Below, piece by piece: positions 10,053-59,646 of a DNA stretch of 64,000 bases. The stretch's first letter is position 1; each line of letters opens with the position of its first letter. The notes below the pieces were generated by a model. That model searched no databases, had not been told where the DNA came from, and worked only from the letters and a program-made list of their open reading frames with translations. Source of the stretch: Akkermansia muciniphila (GTDB lineage Bacteria; Verrucomicrobiota; Verrucomicrobiia; Limisphaerales; BJHT01). Where the stretch lies: assembly GCA_945861535.1 (NCBI GenBank), contig CAMAUZ010000032.1:1-64000 (forward strand). The letters run 5' to 3'. The position numbers and the translations under genes are program-made.

Positions 10053-10312
10053 GGGGGGGGGGGGAAGCTCAAAGCTTAAAGTTCAAAGTTCAAGGGAAGC
10101 TCAAAGGGGCAAGTTCCAAACGGCGGGTACGGGAGGAGAACCTGAGCACTGAAACGGCGCAGCATGGGGCCCTCGCACCTGCGTGGGCGCGGCGGGCGGA
10201 GGCTGTGGTAGCGCAGGCGTCTCGCCTGCGGTACCCGGTGTCACGCCAGCGCCGCTGGAGCTTGCGGCTTGGACCTTCCCTTGAGCTTTGAACTTTGGGC
10301 TTTGAGCTTCCC
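10053..10312. repeat. G12 tract, AAAGCTC/AAAGTTC heptad palindrome and GCAGGCGTC hairpin
   Basis: A run of twelve G (10053-10064) is followed by heptads AAAGCTC, AAAGCTT and AAAGTTC (to about 10106), mirrored at 10274-10312 by GAGCTTTGAACTTTGGGCTTT. Between the arms lies a GCGCAGGCGTCTCGCCTGCG hairpin (10207-10236). Other heptad copies are at 44944-45101, 48149-48192 and 50589-50848. Confidence 0.88.
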
Positions 10313-10356
10313 ACCGATGATTTCGTTCGCTCCGGAGCGACGGCTGACACGCGCTG

Positions 10357-14679: not shown

Positions 14680-14774
14680 ATTCACTACGGAGGCAGGCTA
14701 GCAGCGGGGCGGGGTGGCGTCAAACGTGCGGTGTGGGCGAACGGCGATGGAGCGACAAAAAAGGCGCCAGGTTC

Positions 14775-15198
14775 CTCGGCTGTAGCGCAGGTTTCTAAAC
14801 CTGCTGTGTCGCCGATTTCCAAATCGGCAGGGCGTGGAAAATGGGAGCGAGTTATCCTGTCGGGACGGTCTGCAGGTTTGGAAACCCGCGACACAGCAGG
14901 TTTGGAAACCTGCGCTACGAGGCGGCTCGCGGTCGCTCACGCGCCGGGCGCGGGCTTCGTCGCGGCCTGGCTGCGGCGGGCGCTTTCTCGGCTGTAGCGC
15001 AGGCTTCCAAGCCTGCTGTGTCGCCGATTTCCAAATCGGCAGGGCGTGGAAAATGGGAGCGAGTTATCCTGTCGGGACGGTCTGCAGGTTTGGAAACCCG
15101 CGACACAGCAGGTTTGGAAACCTGCGCTACGAGGCGGCTCGCGCTCGCTCACGCACCCGGCGCGGGCTTGATCGCGGCTTGGCTGCGGCGGGCGCTTT
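14775..15198. repeat. tandem duplication of a 212 bp unit
   Basis: Unit 1 is 14775-14986 and unit 2 is 14987-15198. Both contain the palindrome GTAGCGCAGGTTTCTAAACC-type arm and its mirror GGTTTGGAAACCTGCGCTAC, with a CCGATTTCCAAATCGG hairpin inside. Unit 2 also contains the last ~50 bases of the TPR gene (stop at 15149); unit 1 therefore carries a second, detached copy of that gene end (about 14937-14986). The two units differ at only a few positions. Confidence 0.92.
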
Positions 15199-17842
15199 CG
15201 ATTTTTTTCTCGAGCATCGGGCGCAGCGAGGGGACGAGGTCTTGCAGGCGGCGATAGAGGTTGATGGATTCGTTCCACTGGCCGCGCGTCTCGAGGACGC
15301 GCGCGGCGGCGAGACCGGCTTCCTTGATCCAGAAGGGATCGGGCCTCTCGCCGTCGCGGAGATTTTTTCCGTACACGACATTGAGATAGCGCTCGAGAGC
15401 CGCGTTCAGCAGCGGCGTTTGTTCGGGCACGGCTTTTTTCTCGGCGAGCCGTTCGGTGACGGTGCCGAGGCCGATCTCGGCCTGGCTGCGCGAGGAGACA
15501 TCCGCGATGGGCGACGGCATGGCGATCACCGCCTGATAGGCCGCCTGCGCGCCGTCGTAGCGCTTGGCATCCTGCGCGCCGAGCTGGAGATGGCAGTCGC
15601 CGATGCGCCCGAGGGCCTTGGCGACGATGGCGTTGGTTGGGAACAACTGGACGATCTTGTTGAACGCGTTGATGGCCTCCTCGTACTTGCCCAGCGGTTT
15701 CTCGGCGTCGCCGGCGTGCTCGAGAATGGTCGTGTCACCGATGGCAAAAAGCGCCTCGGCCATCTGCTCGGGCGGGCATTTGGGATCCTTGATGAGCGCC
15801 GTGAAATACGCGCGCGCATCGGGGAAACTCTGCCGCGCCACCGCGCTGCGGCCGGCCATCATGCGCGCCTGAAAATGCAGCGCGGGCGGGCAGTTCGAGT
15901 TCTGGTAGAGCATTTGGTAGTGCTTCTCGGCATCCACGTAGCCTTCGTGATTGAAGAAATAATCCGCCACCCAGAGCTGCGCCTGCGGCGCGTTGATGTG
16001 GCCCGGATAACGCGCGACGACGTTGGTGAACATCGCCATCGCGTTGGTCTCGCGGCCGGCGAGGAAGTTCACCCACGCGCGGTCGAACTCCGCCTGCGGC
16101 CGGCTTTGATTGGTCGGAAACTTCGCGAACCAGTCGTCGTATTTCCCCACCGCCGCGGCCCAGTCCTTTTCCTCGACGTACGTGCGCGCGATGGCCAGAT
16201 GCACCTCGCCCACGAGCGGCGAGCCGGGGAACTGTTTCAGAAAATCGAGGAAGACCGCGCGGGCATTGGTCGGTTTGCCCTGCCGGTTCAGCGCCTGCCC
16301 GAGCAGCAGGAGGCTGCGGTCGCCGTAGCTGCTCTCGGGATACCACGCGAGCAGCTTGCCCAGCGCATCGGTCGCCACGCCGAGGTCGCCCATTTCGATG
16401 CCCGCGCGGAGAATCTTGTAGAGCGCCTGCTCGAACAGCCGCGCCTTCACCGCCGCCGAGCCGGAGTAATCGCTCACCACGCGGCTGAAATTCTGCACGG
16501 CGTTGGTAAAATCACGCTGCTGAAACTGCGTCTCCGCCAGTTTGAAACGCGCCACCGCCTGGTCCTCGGTGAACGGCAGCCGCTGCGTCGCCTCGCGAAA
16601 CGCCACCTGCGCCTCGACGAGCTTGTCCTGATTCCAGAAACACCAGCCGAGATTCAGGAACGATTTCCCCGCCAGCGGCCCTTTCGGAAAATCTTTGATG
16701 ACCTGCTCGAAGCCCACCTGCGCGCGCGCGAGCAGGTTGGTCGCCGCTGCGAGCAGTCCCGGCGAGCTGTTGGTTAGTCGCGCCTGCTGCACCTGATAAT
16801 ATTCCTTCAACCGCAGTTCTCCGAGCGTGAACACCGCCACGTCGATCGCCGGGTCCTGCGGATTTTGCGCGACGAACGCCTCCAGCTTTTGCGTGGTCTC
16901 GGTGAGCTTCTCCTGCTTGAGCGTCAGCTCGATGCTCTTGAGCAGCGCGGCGCGGCGGAACTCCGGCGGCACGTTCGTAGCGAGGTTGCGCTCGTAGGCG
17001 GCGGCCGCGTCGGCGTAGCGGTTCAAGCCCTCGAAGGTCGCCGCTTGAAACCGGATCGCCTCCGCCAGCGGCCGCCCGCCGCCGAGTGTCACCGAGAGCG
17101 CCTGCAGATTGGTCGTGCCGCGCAACGCGTCCGCCAGCCTTCCATCCGCCGTCAGAATGCGGCAGAGCAAAAACTGCCGCTGCCAGTCGATCTCCGGCGC
17201 GAGCTTGGCCGCCGCCAATTGTTTCAACGCCTCCTCGCCCACGCGAAACGCCTTCTGCTCCAGCGCCGCCTCGCCCAGCAGCAGCAGCCCGCGCGCGAAC
17301 GGTTCGTCCCTGAGCCGCGACTTCGCCGCGCGGCGAAATGCGCCGTTGGGGTCCTGCAACAACTCGACCACCCGCGCCCACTCGCCGAGCCGCGAATGCG
17401 CGTACGCCTCGCCGTAGGCTGCCTCAAGCGCGTGGAGCGAGTTGGTGAATTGCGTGGTCACGCGGTGATACGCCTCCGCCGCCGGCCGCACCTTGCCGCC
17501 CTGCAACAGCGCCTCCGCCATCCAGAACTGGTAGCGGTCCGCGAACACGCCCGCCTGCTTTTCCTCCACCGTCAGCATCGCCACCGCGCCGTCGTGATTT
17601 TTTTGTTTCAACCGCGACAGCGCCAGAAACAGCACCGCCTCCGCGCGATACTGCGACTGCGGATATTGCTGCACGAATTCGCCGAACCACTTCTCCGCGG
17701 TCGCCCAGTTCTCGTCTTGGAAAACGCCAGCGGCTGCTTGGAAGGCGTTCTCCTCGGCTGGCGTGGCGGCGCGCACCGAGGCGGGGAGCACGGCGCAGAA
17801 CAGGAGCGCGGAGAGAAGGAGGAATGACACCAGAGCTTTCAT
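15149..17842 (-). CDS. large exported tetratricopeptide-repeat protein
   Basis: 897 residues with a signal peptide (MKALVSFLLLSALLFCAVL). The rest is TPR-type helical repeats, for example AEKWFGEFVQQYPQSQYRAE, FEQVIKDFPKGPLAGKSFLN and KYEEAINAFNKIVQLFPTNA. The repeats with YP or FP before the next helix resemble the BamD/YbgF style. It probably acts as a periplasmic or outer-membrane scaffold; no enzymatic domain is visible. I use ATG 17842 because the alternative start at 17848 is TTG. Its final codons lie inside a 212 bp duplicated repeat, so the C-terminal ARRSQAAIKPAPGA is shared with the repeat. Confidence 0.85.
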   Translation of the reverse strand: MKALVSFLLLSALLFCAVLPASVRAATPAEENAFQAAAGVFQDENWATAEKWFGEFVQQYPQSQYRAEAVLFLALSRLKQKNHDGAVAMLTVEEKQAGVFADRYQFWMAEALLQGGKVRPAAEAYHRVTTQFTNSLHALEAAYGEAYAHSRLGEWARVVELLQDPNGAFRRAAKSRLRDEPFARGLLLLGEAALEQKAFRVGEEALKQLAAAKLAPEIDWQRQFLLCRILTADGRLADALRGTTNLQALSVTLGGGRPLAEAIRFQAATFEGLNRYADAAAAYERNLATNVPPEFRRAALLKSIELTLKQEKLTETTQKLEAFVAQNPQDPAIDVAVFTLGELRLKEYYQVQQARLTNSSPGLLAAATNLLARAQVGFEQVIKDFPKGPLAGKSFLNLGWCFWNQDKLVEAQVAFREATQRLPFTEDQAVARFKLAETQFQQRDFTNAVQNFSRVVSDYSGSAAVKARLFEQALYKILRAGIEMGDLGVATDALGKLLAWYPESSYGDRSLLLLGQALNRQGKPTNARAVFLDFLKQFPGSPLVGEVHLAIARTYVEEKDWAAAVGKYDDWFAKFPTNQSRPQAEFDRAWVNFLAGRETNAMAMFTNVVARYPGHINAPQAQLWVADYFFNHEGYVDAEKHYQMLYQNSNCPPALHFQARMMAGRSAVARQSFPDARAYFTALIKDPKCPPEQMAEALFAIGDTTILEHAGDAEKPLGKYEEAINAFNKIVQLFPTNAIVAKALGRIGDCHLQLGAQDAKRYDGAQAAYQAVIAMPSPIADVSSRSQAEIGLGTVTERLAEKKAVPEQTPLLNAALERYLNVVYGKNLRDGERPDPFWIKEAGLAAARVLETRGQWNESINLYRRLQDLVPSLRPMLEKKIESARRSQAAIKPAPGA

Positions 17843-22446: not shown

Positions 22447-22576
22447 GGAGCGCGGCTGTGTGCGCCGAGCACCAGCCGCAGCAGCTTGGCCGCGCGGGAC
22501 GCCTCGGAATTCAAAGGGTGCCTCCGAGTTCTCGGGGCCGCTGCGGCTGGTCCTCGGCGTACACAGCTGCGCTCCG
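22447..22576. repeat. palindrome of the GAGCGCGGCTGTGTGC family, copy 1
   Basis: GGAGCGCGGCTGTGTGCGCC is mirrored by GGCGTACACAGCTGCGCTCC, with a second inner pair built on CACCAGCCGCAGC / GCTGCGGCTGGTC. A second copy is at 26804-26924. A G10 tract follows at 22578-22587. Confidence 0.9.
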
Positions 22577-22601
22577 CGGGGGGGGGGCGACTCCTCCCCA
22601 C

Positions 22602-23126
22602 TGTACTGCAACGCTGCGAACTCCTCGCCCGCCGCGAGGATATGGCCGTGCCGCTGGCAACCATCAGATCACCGGAGAAGTGCCGCCGACGCGTGCCTTT
22701 TGGTCCCGGAGGGACGCCGCAGGAAATTAGCCGGGGGCAAGCCCGCGCCAGCGGACGCGGCCCCCGGTTGTCACGCCGAACGGGCCATGCCCCGGAGGGG
22801 CATCGGAGAAGTTTTTGCTGTCTCACACCCCGCAGCATCGCCGCCATCGCTCGTCGCCTCGGGCAGGTCAGGCAGTCAAAGATTGGCCAGCGTCCCGGGC
22901 CATTTCTTCGATGCCCCGCTGGGGCACGGAGCCATTCGGCACCGTTTCCGGGGGGCGGCGTCCGCAGGGGCGGACTTGCCCCCCCAGCTAATCTCCTCCG
23001 GCGTCCCTCCGGGACGGGAACCGCGCGGCCACGCACTGCCAATGGAAACCACCGGAGCGGGAATAGCGTTTCCAACTCGTTTGGTTGCGGCTCCGCCGCC
23101 CTGTGTTCACCGTGTTTCCGTGGTCG
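22602..23126 (+). repeat. ~520 bp compound palindromic element, copy 1
   Basis: Nearly full-length match to 58952-59472 in the opposite orientation. The halves are inverted copies of each other: CCCGGAGGGACGCCGCAGGA...TTAGCCGGGGGCAAG is mirrored by CTTGCCCCC...TAATCTCC...GTCCCTCCGGGAC, and the centre has paired ATGCCCC...GGGGCATC hairpins. No open frame in it looks like protein. It resembles a non-autonomous mobile or BIME-like element. Confidence 0.88.
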
Positions 23127-23311: not shown

Positions 23312-23345
23312 AGAAAACAAAAGGCGAACGGTTGCCCGTTCGCCT
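23312..23345 (-). terminator. intrinsic terminator after ahcY
   Basis: Minus-strand stem AGGCGAACGG / CCGTTCGCCT followed by TTTGTTTTCTT, 26 bases past the ahcY stop. Confidence 0.85.
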
Positions 23346-23370
23346 CGTGTGTCTTGAGATTTGCAGTCGC

Positions 23371-26734: not shown

Positions 26735-26803
26735 CAGGTATTTTGGGGAAAATCAGGAGCGGGCGGAGGATGAAGCGCGGCACGGCGGCGGCGCGCCATC
26801 GCC

Positions 26804-26924
26804 GGAGCGCGGCTGTGTGCGGAGCACCAGCCGCAGCGCTCCGAAAACCGGACGGCGTCGGATTGATCGCAGCACGTCGGGAGATTGCGGCTGCTGCGGC
26901 TGGTCTGCGACACAGCCGCGCTCC
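26804..26924. repeat. palindrome of the GAGCGCGGCTGTGTGC family, copy 2
   Basis: GGAGCGCGGCTGTGTGCGGA is mirrored by CGACACAGCCGCGCTCC, with the inner AGCACCAGCCGCAGC / GCTGCGGCTGGT pair. It lies between the divergent metK and arsR-methyltransferase genes, separating their control regions. Confidence 0.9.
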
Positions 26925-27001
26925 GGGGCTGGGCGGGGATGCGCCCGATTAGTTCCGAACCATCCGTTGGTTGACTTACACACTGCGAATCATAGCTACA
27001 C

Positions 27002-42181: not shown

Positions 42182-44923
42182 ATGCGCACTCGCTTCACTC
42201 ACTTTCTCCGCCGTCGGCACTTTCCCCGCGCCGCGGCCGCTCTCGCCGTGCTGCTCGCTCTTTTCGCGCTGCCGGGCCTCACCTTTGCCGCGGCTGATCT
42301 GGAGGCGTGCCGCGAACTTTTCCTCACCGGCAAGTACACCGAATGCAACGCCCTCGCCGACCAAGCCATCGCGGACAACGAATACCCCGAGGAATGGCGC
42401 GAACTGAAAATCAATGCGCTGCTCACGCTCGGCCGTTACGCCGATTCGCTCGGCGCGCTCACCAATGCCCTCACGCGCCACGGTTCGAGCATTCGCATCC
42501 GCCTGTTGGGGCGCGAGGTTTACCAGCTCAACAACCAGCCCGAGCGCGCCAAGGAAATGCTCCGCGAGATCAACGAGCTCGTCACCTACCGCGGCTGGGC
42601 TTATCGCGATCCGCCCAACATGGTCGTGCTCGGCCGCACGGCGCTGCTGCTCGGCGTCGATCCCAAGCAGGTGCTGGAAAAACTTTTCGACAAGGCGAAG
42701 ACCGCCGATCCCGCGCTGCGCGACACCTATCTCGCGAGCGGCGAACTCGCCCTCGGCAAACACGATTACGAACTCGCCGCCAAGTCCTTCCGCGACGGCC
42801 TCAAGCGTTTTCCCAAAGACCCCGAGTTTCACTTCGGACTCGCCCGCGCCTTCGCGCCCGGCGAACGCGGCCCGATGGTTCTCGCGCTGCAGGCCGCCCT
42901 GAAGCTCAACACCAACCATATTCCCAGCCGCCTCCTGCTCGCCGATCATCTCATCGACGCCGAGGAATATGCGGAAGCCGAGGGGCTTCTCGACCTGGTC
43001 CAGCAGGTGAATCCAAACCATCCCGAAGCGTGGTCGTATCGCGCCATCATCGCGCATCTTCGCGCCGATGCCGCCGCGGAAACCAAGGCCCGCCAGAATG
43101 CGCTGAAGCCGTGGCCCACCAACCCGCGCGTCGCGCATCTCATCGGCCAGAAGCTCTCGCTGAAATACCGTTTCGCCGAAGGGGCCGCCGCCCAGCGGCA
43201 GGCGCTCAAATTCGATCCCGATTATCTCCCCGCCAAAATCCAGCTCGCGCAGGACCTGCTTCGGCTCGGCGAGGAAACCGAAGGCTGGCAGCTCGCCGAC
43301 GAGGTGTATCAGAAGGATGGCTACGACGTGTCGGCGTTCAACCTCGTCACGCTCAAGGAGGCGATGGGCAAATTCCAGACCCTCACCAACCAGCACTTCA
43401 TCCTCCGCATGGGCGAACGCGAGGCGCGCATCTACGGCCGCGCCGCGCTCGCGTTGCTCGAGCGCGCGCACGCCACGCTCTGCACGAAATACGGACTGAA
43501 ACTCGACAAGCCCGTGACCGTGGAAATCTTCCCCGATCAAAAAGATTTCGCCGTCCGCACGTTCGGCATGCCCGGCAATCCCGGCTATCTCGGCGTCTGC
43601 TTCGGGTGCGTCATTACCGCAAACAGCCCCGCCTCGCAGGCGGCGCATCCGGCCAACTGGCAGGCCGTTCTCTGGCACGAGTTCTGTCACGTCGTCACCC
43701 TCCAGCTCACCAAAAACAAAATGCCGCGCTGGCTTAGCGAAGGCATCTCCGTCTTTGAAGAACGACTGGCCAATCCCACCTGGGGCCAGACCATGAACGC
43801 CCGCTACCGCGCGATGATTCTCGAGGACGACGAAATCACGCCCATCGGCGAACTCAGTTCCGCCTTCATGGCGCCGCGGACGCCGCTGCACCTCGACTTC
43901 GCGTATTACCAATCCTCGCTCGTGGTCGAGTTTCTGGTGGGAAAATTCGGCCTCGATTCCCTCAAGCGCATCCTCGCCGATCTTGCCAAGGGTATCGAAA
44001 TCAATGCTGCCATCGCCGCCCACACTGCGCCGCTCGACAAACTCGAACCGGAGTTCGAGGCCTTCGCCCGCAAACGCGCGAAGGATCTCGCGCCCGGCCT
44101 CGACTGGACCAAACCCGCCACTGAACTCGATCTCGCCGCCGCGCCGGGAATGCCGCGGCTGCGCCGTCCGTCGCCCAAGCCGATCAGCGTTGGCGGTGCC
44201 AACGGCACCAACGCCACCAACGTCGTCATCGCTCCGCTCGCACCGACCAACGCGCCGCCGAAAAGTCCGGTCGCACCGCCAGCCGCGCCGCTCGTTGTCG
44301 CGCCCCTGCTGCTGCTGCCCGTCGCGATCCCCAACTCGACGAATTTCTACGTGCTCACGCGCGAGGCGAAGGAACTGCTCGCGAAGAAAAAATGGCGCGA
44401 AGCCACCGAGCCGTTGAAAAAACTCGTCACCCTGCATCCGACCCAAACCAGCCCAGGCAACGCCTATCAGCTCCTCGCCCTCGCCTATCAGCGCCTCAAC
44501 GAAACCGCGCTGGAACGCGAGACCCTCGCCCGCCTCGCCGCGATCAGCGCCGACGCCATCGACGCCTACCAGCGCCTCATGGAACTCGGGGCCTCGACCA
44601 ACGACTGGCGCGCGGTGAGTACCAACGCCGCGCGTTTTCTCGCCGTGAACCCGCTCCTCGCGCCCGCCCACCGCCATCTCGCGCGCGCCAGCGAAGAACT
44701 CGGCCAGACCGCCGAGGCCATCGAGGCCTACAAAACCGTCCTCGAACTCGACCCGCCCGACGCCGCCGATGCCCACTACCGCCTCGCGCGCCTGCTGCAC
44801 AAAAACGGCGATCCCACCGCCCGCCAGCACGCGCTCCAGGCCGCCGAAGAAGCCCCGCGTTTCCGCGAAGCCCTGAGTTTGCTGCTCGAAATCAGCGCGC
44901 CGAAGCCGGCGGCGAAACCGTGA
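42182..44923 (+). CDS. exported TPR protein with peptidase MA-like domain
   Basis: 913 residues with a signal peptide (about 1-38, through LTFAAAD). Residues 40-430 are TPR-type repeats. Residues about 450-640 are a gluzincin-like domain with the zinc motif WHEFCHVVTLQL and, further on, RWLSEGISVFEE carrying the likely third ligand. A Pro/Ala/Asn-rich linker (about 675-725) leads to a second TPR block. The frame is open far upstream of ATG 42182, but that part runs through palindromes. It probably acts in the periplasm; the substrate is unknown. Confidence 0.85.
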   Translation: MRTRFTHFLRRRHFPRAAAALAVLLALFALPGLTFAAADLEACRELFLTGKYTECNALADQAIADNEYPEEWRELKINALLTLGRYADSLGALTNALTRHGSSIRIRLLGREVYQLNNQPERAKEMLREINELVTYRGWAYRDPPNMVVLGRTALLLGVDPKQVLEKLFDKAKTADPALRDTYLASGELALGKHDYELAAKSFRDGLKRFPKDPEFHFGLARAFAPGERGPMVLALQAALKLNTNHIPSRLLLADHLIDAEEYAEAEGLLDLVQQVNPNHPEAWSYRAIIAHLRADAAAETKARQNALKPWPTNPRVAHLIGQKLSLKYRFAEGAAAQRQALKFDPDYLPAKIQLAQDLLRLGEETEGWQLADEVYQKDGYDVSAFNLVTLKEAMGKFQTLTNQHFILRMGEREARIYGRAALALLERAHATLCTKYGLKLDKPVTVEIFPDQKDFAVRTFGMPGNPGYLGVCFGCVITANSPASQAAHPANWQAVLWHEFCHVVTLQLTKNKMPRWLSEGISVFEERLANPTWGQTMNARYRAMILEDDEITPIGELSSAFMAPRTPLHLDFAYYQSSLVVEFLVGKFGLDSLKRILADLAKGIEINAAIAAHTAPLDKLEPEFEAFARKRAKDLAPGLDWTKPATELDLAAAPGMPRLRRPSPKPISVGGANGTNATNVVIAPLAPTNAPPKSPVAPPAAPLVVAPLLLLPVAIPNSTNFYVLTREAKELLAKKKWREATEPLKKLVTLHPTQTSPGNAYQLLALAYQRLNETALERETLARLAAISADAIDAYQRLMELGASTNDWRAVSTNAARFLAVNPLLAPAHRHLARASEELGQTAEAIEAYKTVLELDPPDAADAHYRLARLLHKNGDPTARQHALQAAEEAPRFREALSLLLEISAPKPAAKP

Positions 44924-44943
44924 GTGAAACCGGGGATGCGCAG

Positions 44944-45101
44944 AAAAGCTCAATGCTCAAAGTTCAAAGCTCAAGGGAAGAGCCAAGGCTCAAGCATCCA
45001 AGCGGCCCTTGTCATGGAGGAGCGATCCCGCGTGTGCCGCGGAGGGAGCTTGGTGCTTGGCCCTTTTTTGAGCTTTAGGCTTTGAGCTTTGAACTTCCCC
45101 C
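44944..45101. repeat. AAAGCTC/AAAGTTC heptad palindrome, copy 2
   Basis: AAAGCTCAATGCTCAAAGTT-type heptads (44944-45000) are mirrored by TTTGAGCTTTGAACTT (about 45068-45101). The right arm ends just before the pirin start codon. Confidence 0.85.
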
Positions 45102-45111
45102 CGAAACCCCA

Positions 45112-58951: not shown

Positions 58952-59472
58952 GACCACCGAGACGCGATGAACACAAAGCGGCAAAGCCGCAACCGAACGA
59001 CTTGGGAACACCGTTCCGGTGCCGGGGGGGTCCATTGGTCAGTGTGTGGCCGTCTGGTTTCTGTCCCGGAGGGACTCCAGAGGAGATTAGCCGGGGGCAA
59101 GTCCGCGCCCGCGGACGCCGCCCCCGGAACCCGTGCCGAGGGTCTCCGTGCCCCAGCGGGGCATCGAAGAAATGGCGCGAGATGTTGGCTGATCCCTGGC
59201 GGCCCGCTCTGTCCGGGGCGACGAGTGGTGACGGTGATGCTGCGGGACGGGCGACGCCAAAAACTTCTCCGATGCCCCGCTGGGGCATGGCCCGTTCGGC
59301 CTGGGAACCGGGGGCCGCGCCCGCTGGCACGGGCTTGCCCCCGGCTAATTTCCTGCGGCGTCCCTCCGGGGCCAAGGACCAGGCGTCAGCGACAATTTTC
59401 CGGTTGCCAAGGCGCTGCCAGTGCAACGGCAAAATCCTCGCGGGGCGCGCGGATTTTGAAGCGCTGTAGTAC
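58952..59472 (-). repeat. ~520 bp compound palindromic element, copy 2
   Basis: Reverse-complement match of 22602-23126 over almost its whole length, including ATTAGCCGGGGGCAAG, the two GCCCC...GGGGC hairpins and the end motif TTGTGTTCATCGCGTCTCGG. An outer arm at 59555-59579 (GTGTTAATCGTGTCTCGGTG) mirrors 58952-58978, so this copy lies inside a larger palindrome (58952-59579). Confidence 0.9.
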
Positions 59473-59646
59473 AGAGAAGAACGTTGGTTGGCGTCTGCTC
59501 CCGGAACTCACCGTTCAATGAACCTCAATCGGTTGCACAATTCTTTTTCTTCCCAGTGTTAATCGTGTCTCGGTGGTCCATCGGAATCGTCTCGGCTGCG
59601 CGGCTGCATCTGCGCCGGTTCATCTCAACGCCCCACGCAATCTCCC

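Follow-up and report, generated by a model that had tools for sequence, protein, structure and literature searches.

Two palindromic sequences in opposite orientation lie within the 64,000-nucleotide stretch of Akkermansia muciniphila DNA analysed here (the window), and they raise the question of what unit is repeated, and whether it is a mobile element or a structured RNA. A sequence-only reading had described a compound palindrome of ~520 bp, present twice and matching almost end to end. Local alignment of the copies at 22601-23125 (+) and 59474-58952 (-) bears this pairing out, with 422 of 522 aligned positions identical (81%), and a self-search of the window gives the copy-versus-copy match E = 5e-126. 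Each copy is itself a dyad, as had been claimed, matching its own inverse at 22703-23015 with E 5e-28 and at 59051-59385 with E 9e-39. The length of ~520 bp describes the span of this alignment, but the unit repeated genome-wide is a shorter core, a ~310-bp inverted doublet at 22703-23016 containing two ~110-nt arms; likewise, both window copies are real but they belong to a family of at least 40 core copies in the genome.

Anatomy of the core and its outer modules

In the core, arm A is followed by a spacer of ~90 bp, shorter in many copies, and then by the inverted arm B. In each arm a GGARATTAG stretch separates hairpin 1 from hairpin 2, and hairpin 3 comes last; a TTAG tag lies at the foot of hairpin 2, and the two tags of a doublet point outward. 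The features are as follows:

22601..22702, + strand: left outer module, outside the core; hairpin around GAGGAT/ATCCTC
22703..22812, + strand: arm A, copy 1; REP-like unit with three hairpins, conserved in 137 distinct arms
22703..22715, + strand: hairpin 1 (outer); 5-bp stem, two-sided changes in 3 of 5 pairs
22727..22730, + strand: TTAG tag; conserved in the arm alignment, NTAG plus hairpin enriched beside Y1 genes
22731..22767, + strand: hairpin 2 (middle); unpaired AA opposite GCG/GCC, inner pair C-G changing to T-A
22788..22802, + strand: hairpin 3 (inner); 99.7% of cells paired
22813..22903, no strand: spacer between the arms; least conserved part of the core
22904..23016, - strand: arm B, copy 1, inverted; from arm search and alignment
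23031..23126, + strand: right outer module, outside the core; widespread without the core
59062..59171, + strand: arm B, copy 2; from arm search and alignment
59263..59372, - strand: arm A, copy 2; from arm search and alignment

The AA bulge of hairpin 2 may resemble the E. coli REP. In an alignment of 50 copies, 40 from the genome that contains the window (G000) and 10 from a sister species of the same genus (G001), column identity is 0.85-0.98 through most of the arms, compared with about 0.45-0.8 outside; in the spacer it drops to about 0.45 (22869-22898), where gaps make up about 40%.

The ~100 bp on each side of the core are separate repeats, also found around other palindromes. Nearly all of the copies scored in the own genome (39 of 40) cover the core, with 33 extending into the left module and 15 into the right. 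Parts of the two modules, the initial ~41 bp of the left and the final ~50 bp of the right, recur without the core, about 105-130 bp apart, and in the five cases read the palindromes between them are quite unlike the core. Because the module ends recur around different palindromes, the ~520-bp stretch is a mosaic that contains the core, and for most copies we reject the view that it moves as a whole. This conclusion is tempered by the sole presence/absence case, described below, which involves a larger composite. The modules may predate the core as repeats, or may be insertion sites; the core would have landed beside them.

Other repeated palindromes are present in the window. One of a different type (GGAGCGCGGCTGTGTGCGC...), at 22447-22590 and 26796-26932, adjoins the element and is found elsewhere in the genome between the same outer modules. 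A 225-bp palindromic unit forms a tandem pair at 14763-15199 (94% identical), a motif around CTGTGTTCATCGTGTCTCTGTGG, identical to the end of the right module, has inverted copies at 208-407 and 59471-59600, and related repeated palindromes lie at 10059-10315 (of the AAGTTCAAAGCTCAAAG type) and 44923-45110.

Hairpin covariation, copy number and gene context

A set of 137 distinct arms was assembled, 89 from G000, 42 from G001, and 6 from a third genome (G018), and 58 of these were chosen for covariation analysis. In this sample 97.8% of cells are paired, five pairs are changed on both sides (reached in 1 of 500 shuffles), and 37 cells are changed on both sides (reached in none of 500), counts that are inflated by the relatedness of the copies and consist mostly of one paired change, C-to-T with G-to-A. 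Sliding the partner columns abolishes the signal. The best covarying pair is the inner pair of hairpin 2, which is C-G in 30 and T-A in 27 of the 58 sequences. Comparison of the arms within 24 doublets gives 23 pairs that are not the same in the two arms yet are Watson-Crick in both, and the two arms of a doublet usually carry different versions of hairpin 2, each paired within its own arm. As the differing arms each keep their own pairs, the within-arm hairpins are maintained, and not only a long cross-arm duplex, while the 94.6% identity of doublet arms in paired columns (1090/1152) means that a long cross-arm hairpin is possible as well. The covariance analysis that the sequence-only reading had proposed thus yields compensatory changes within arms, and its contrary expectation, that there might be just two copies lacking such changes, fails, as copies with compensatory changes are many.

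The genome-wide count, also proposed there, was obtained from the 7.94-Mb draft of 169 contigs, in which at least 40 core copies are present (40 scored of 290 first-look candidates). A 400-kb sample of this genome contains three doublets, with all three of its elements being doublets, a density that scales to about 60 doublets per genome with a wide error. The copies are only 74-85% identical to the query copy, and so give no sign of very recent activity. The repeat is narrowly distributed, with matches at E<=1e-3 in 10 of 58 genomes (own included); full copies are found only in G000 and G001, with arm matches in G018 and fragments of ~30 bp in the remaining seven.

None of the 40 copies lies within a called gene, using a home-made gene caller. 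For the 20 copies with both neighbours called, the neighbours are convergent in 10, in the same direction in 10, and divergent in none; the other 20 have at least one side with no called neighbour within the fetched stretch, and these context counts are rough, as the caller drops overlapping genes. The neighbour orientations and the compensatory changes in the hairpins are both consistent with a structured RNA, or a bidirectional terminator or mRNA 3'-end element, kept for a host function and with no current mobility. However, searches of Rfam at gathering and relaxed thresholds gave no credible match to the element, a search for sigma-70-type promoters gave none within it, and a terminator search gave none inside, its three hits being outside, at 23321-23346. 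The arm fold is also about equally possible on both strands, which, with the Rfam and promoter results, leaves unsupported the structured RNA that had been suggested from the sequence. A host-function reading furthermore leaves the link to a Y1 gene, presented below, unexplained, and we regard it as distinctly unlikely; a host role could have been acquired after the copies spread.

Y1 transposase genes and their flanking repeats

The sequence-only reading had also proposed a search for a REP-associated Y1 transposase. There are nine Y1 matches in the genome, and one of these, a Y1 HUH-type gene encoding 148 aa at G000:C29:9372-9815, has seven arms around it in all, distributed over both sides and mostly as doublets, which are 74-79% identical to the window arm. 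The other eight Y1 loci have no arm match of at least 80 query positions at E <= 1e-6, and their genes were rejected as the source of the arms. Possession of the same arms on both flanks of a Y1 gene supports the proposal that the core is a non-autonomous mobile element. The AT-containing motif that had been singled out as a candidate protein site probably corresponds to the TTAG tag of the middle hairpin, and REP transposases of known systems are described as binding at the foot of the tagged hairpin (PMC6006769).

The C29 transposase has intact motifs, DHLH (HUH), WQ, and YIAKQKEHH, and scores 80.5 bits against PF01797, 65.5 bits against NF033573 (NCBIfam, IS200/IS605; cut-off 55), and 16.1 bits against NF047646 (REP_Tyr_transpos), under the cut-off of 80. 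TnpA structures of IS608 and of what we take to be ISDra2 match it with E of 1e-7 to 1e-6. The Y---Q--HH motif, WQ, the length of ~148 aa, and the low copy number would place it with TnpA-Y1 subclass 1.2, an assignment made by motifs, length and copy number. Four own-genome proteins match it at E<=1e-20, the three others being 36-49% identical to the query. Its G001 ortholog is 98% identical and is flanked by arms on each side as well, with five of them in the searched stretch. The arms beside the C29 gene are a divergent subtype, with an inner hairpin 2 different from that of the dispersed arms. In G018 (L059, L061, L086), which belongs to another family of the order, there are close copies of the arms, yet none of its four Y1 genes is flanked by them.

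Transposases of the IS200/IS605 and REP types are thought to cut and rejoin single-stranded hairpins through a 5'-phosphotyrosine link. We consider it probable, at roughly 0.75, that the core is a REPIN-like non-autonomous element that has spread through single-stranded hairpins by the action of a subclass 1.2 TnpA. The arms would fold into hairpins when the DNA is single-stranded, for example in the lagging-strand template, and the C29 TnpA would recognise the tag together with the middle hairpin. By analogy with known Y1 enzymes, it would then cut via a 5'-phosphotyrosine link and join the element elsewhere, and the element would persist beside the 3' ends of genes, where it may do least harm.

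The C29 protein has matches in 31 of the 58 genomes at E<=1e-20 (own included), and we examined 35 loci, comprising 30 fetched of the places listed, three more from the own genome, and two G018 genes. Y---Q--HH is present in 31 of the 35 and HUH in 34. Two loci were dropped and 33 with enough flank on both sides were kept, among which a TAG with a hairpin lies no more than 200 bp away on one or both sides in 21, on both in 14, and on neither in 12. This corresponds to 35 of 66 flanks, compared with a mean of 1.57 in shuffles (sd 1.2, max 6), and with control tiles giving 52/1980 in the own genome and 2/226 at more than 600 bp away in the same loci. The tags among the Y1-flank hits are TTAG (16), GTAG (12), ATAG (10), and CTAG (2), and many flanks repeat one layout of small hairpin, tag, main hairpin, and small hairpin. 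Both flank units tested are multicopy in their own genomes, with 10 matches in G050 and 13 in G009, and matches to the flanks of other G000 Y1 genes (L031, L032, L034) are scattered through the 400-kb sample.

Outside the Verrucomicrobiota, a Y1 gene on a plasmid of Persicobacter (Bacteroidota; L182:500-1300) has a TTAG hairpin on one side and an ATAG hairpin on the other, and the flanks of a Bernardetia Y1 gene have no tag-hairpin.

Subclass 1.2 is marked 'no' for REP, and as mainly from Cyanobacteria and Bacteroidetes, in Table 1 of Quentin et al. 2018 (PMC6006769), which describes it as low copy and without REPs, and our literature search found no paper tying the subclass to REPs. We lean, with reserve, towards the broader proposal that these enzymes, thought to be repeat-less orphans, gave rise to a REP world of their own parallel to that of the RAYTs, in which each enzyme has its own three-hairpin NTAG family spreading as inverted doublets, across a Verrucomicrobiota order and in Bacteroidota.

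Evidence on movement and comparison with known systems

At one orthologous site, G000 carries a ~460-bp composite that includes the element and G001 lacks it; a GCAGAGG repeat at both ends of the composite allows either insertion in G000 or deletion in G001. A second orthologous site has the element in both species. None of the G000/G001 sites compared shows a clean core-only insertion, or direct repeats immediately flanking the core. Contig 266 of G001 gives no information on an empty site, as synteny breaks there; synteny is similarly lost at the element in the L012/L094 comparison, and in the L026/L094 and L068/L095 comparisons either the core is shared or a contig ends inside it. These sites bear on whether the element could be a standard MITE, derived from a DDE-type transposon and carrying terminal inverted repeats and target duplications. 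The inversion of the arms and the dispersal of the copies would suit such an element, but each arm contains hairpins of its own and the arms lie beside a Y1 gene, and the GCAGAGG pair at the first site flanks the larger composite rather than the core; we consider a MITE extremely improbable.

The tnpA unit, of about 1256 bp, ends within ~6 bp of the outer arm ends, and lies between blocks A and B in G000 (L185:5688-6943), and between blocks B and C in G001 (L186:9196-10451). The inter-block sequence is too diverged to show an empty site, and recombination between doublets is thus a possible cause of this relocation. Such recombination is also invoked if the copies are fossils, formerly spread by a Y1 enzyme and now moved only by exchange between copies, for which their 74-85% identity and the element shared at one site by both species are further arguments. 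However, the tnpA gene is intact and 98% identical in the two species, and the ~460-bp composite differs in presence between them, and we consider a purely fossil family unlikely.

A REPIN-like element spread by a subclass 1.2 TnpA would give these Y1 enzymes a substrate, and would mean that the class 2 RAYTs are not the only transposase lineage around which REP-type repeats arose. Much of the palindromic DNA between the genes of these genomes would also be accounted for, and the many lineage-specific pairs of enzyme and tag (TTAG, GTAG, ATAG) would render the rules of recognition testable.

The core shares with REP/REPIN (BIME) elements and their class 2 TnpAREP (RAYT) enzymes the tagged hairpins, the inverted pairs, and the dispersal between genes, and as in REP/RAYT systems the repeat flanks a low-copy Y1 gene and different Y1 genes have their own repeat families. 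Yet it is not a strict canonical REP by either tag or length, as the unit measures ~110 nt, contains three hairpins and is tagged TTAG, compared with 20-40 bp and GT[AG]G for REPs, and the enzyme has Y---Q--HH (YIAKQKEHH) in place of the Y---NP of RAYTs and misses the NF047646 cut-off. It resembles IS200/IS605 (subclass 1.1) in having an HUH/Y1 enzyme above the cut-off of NF033573, but differs in having no near-identical multicopy set, in flanking units that are inverted in most loci, and in its dispersed non-autonomous doublets. The GTAG- and CGTC-tagged REPs, including those of Opitutus terrae (PMC3733652), are likewise tagged palindromes in Verrucomicrobia and often dimers, but those described there are short, with no TTAG or three-hairpin units among them. 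The closest likeness of the enzyme in motifs (Y---Q--HH, WQ), length (~148 aa) and low copy number is to TnpA-Y1 subclass 1.2 as described in PMC6006769, from which it differs in being encoded in Verrucomicrobiota and in having REP-like flanks.
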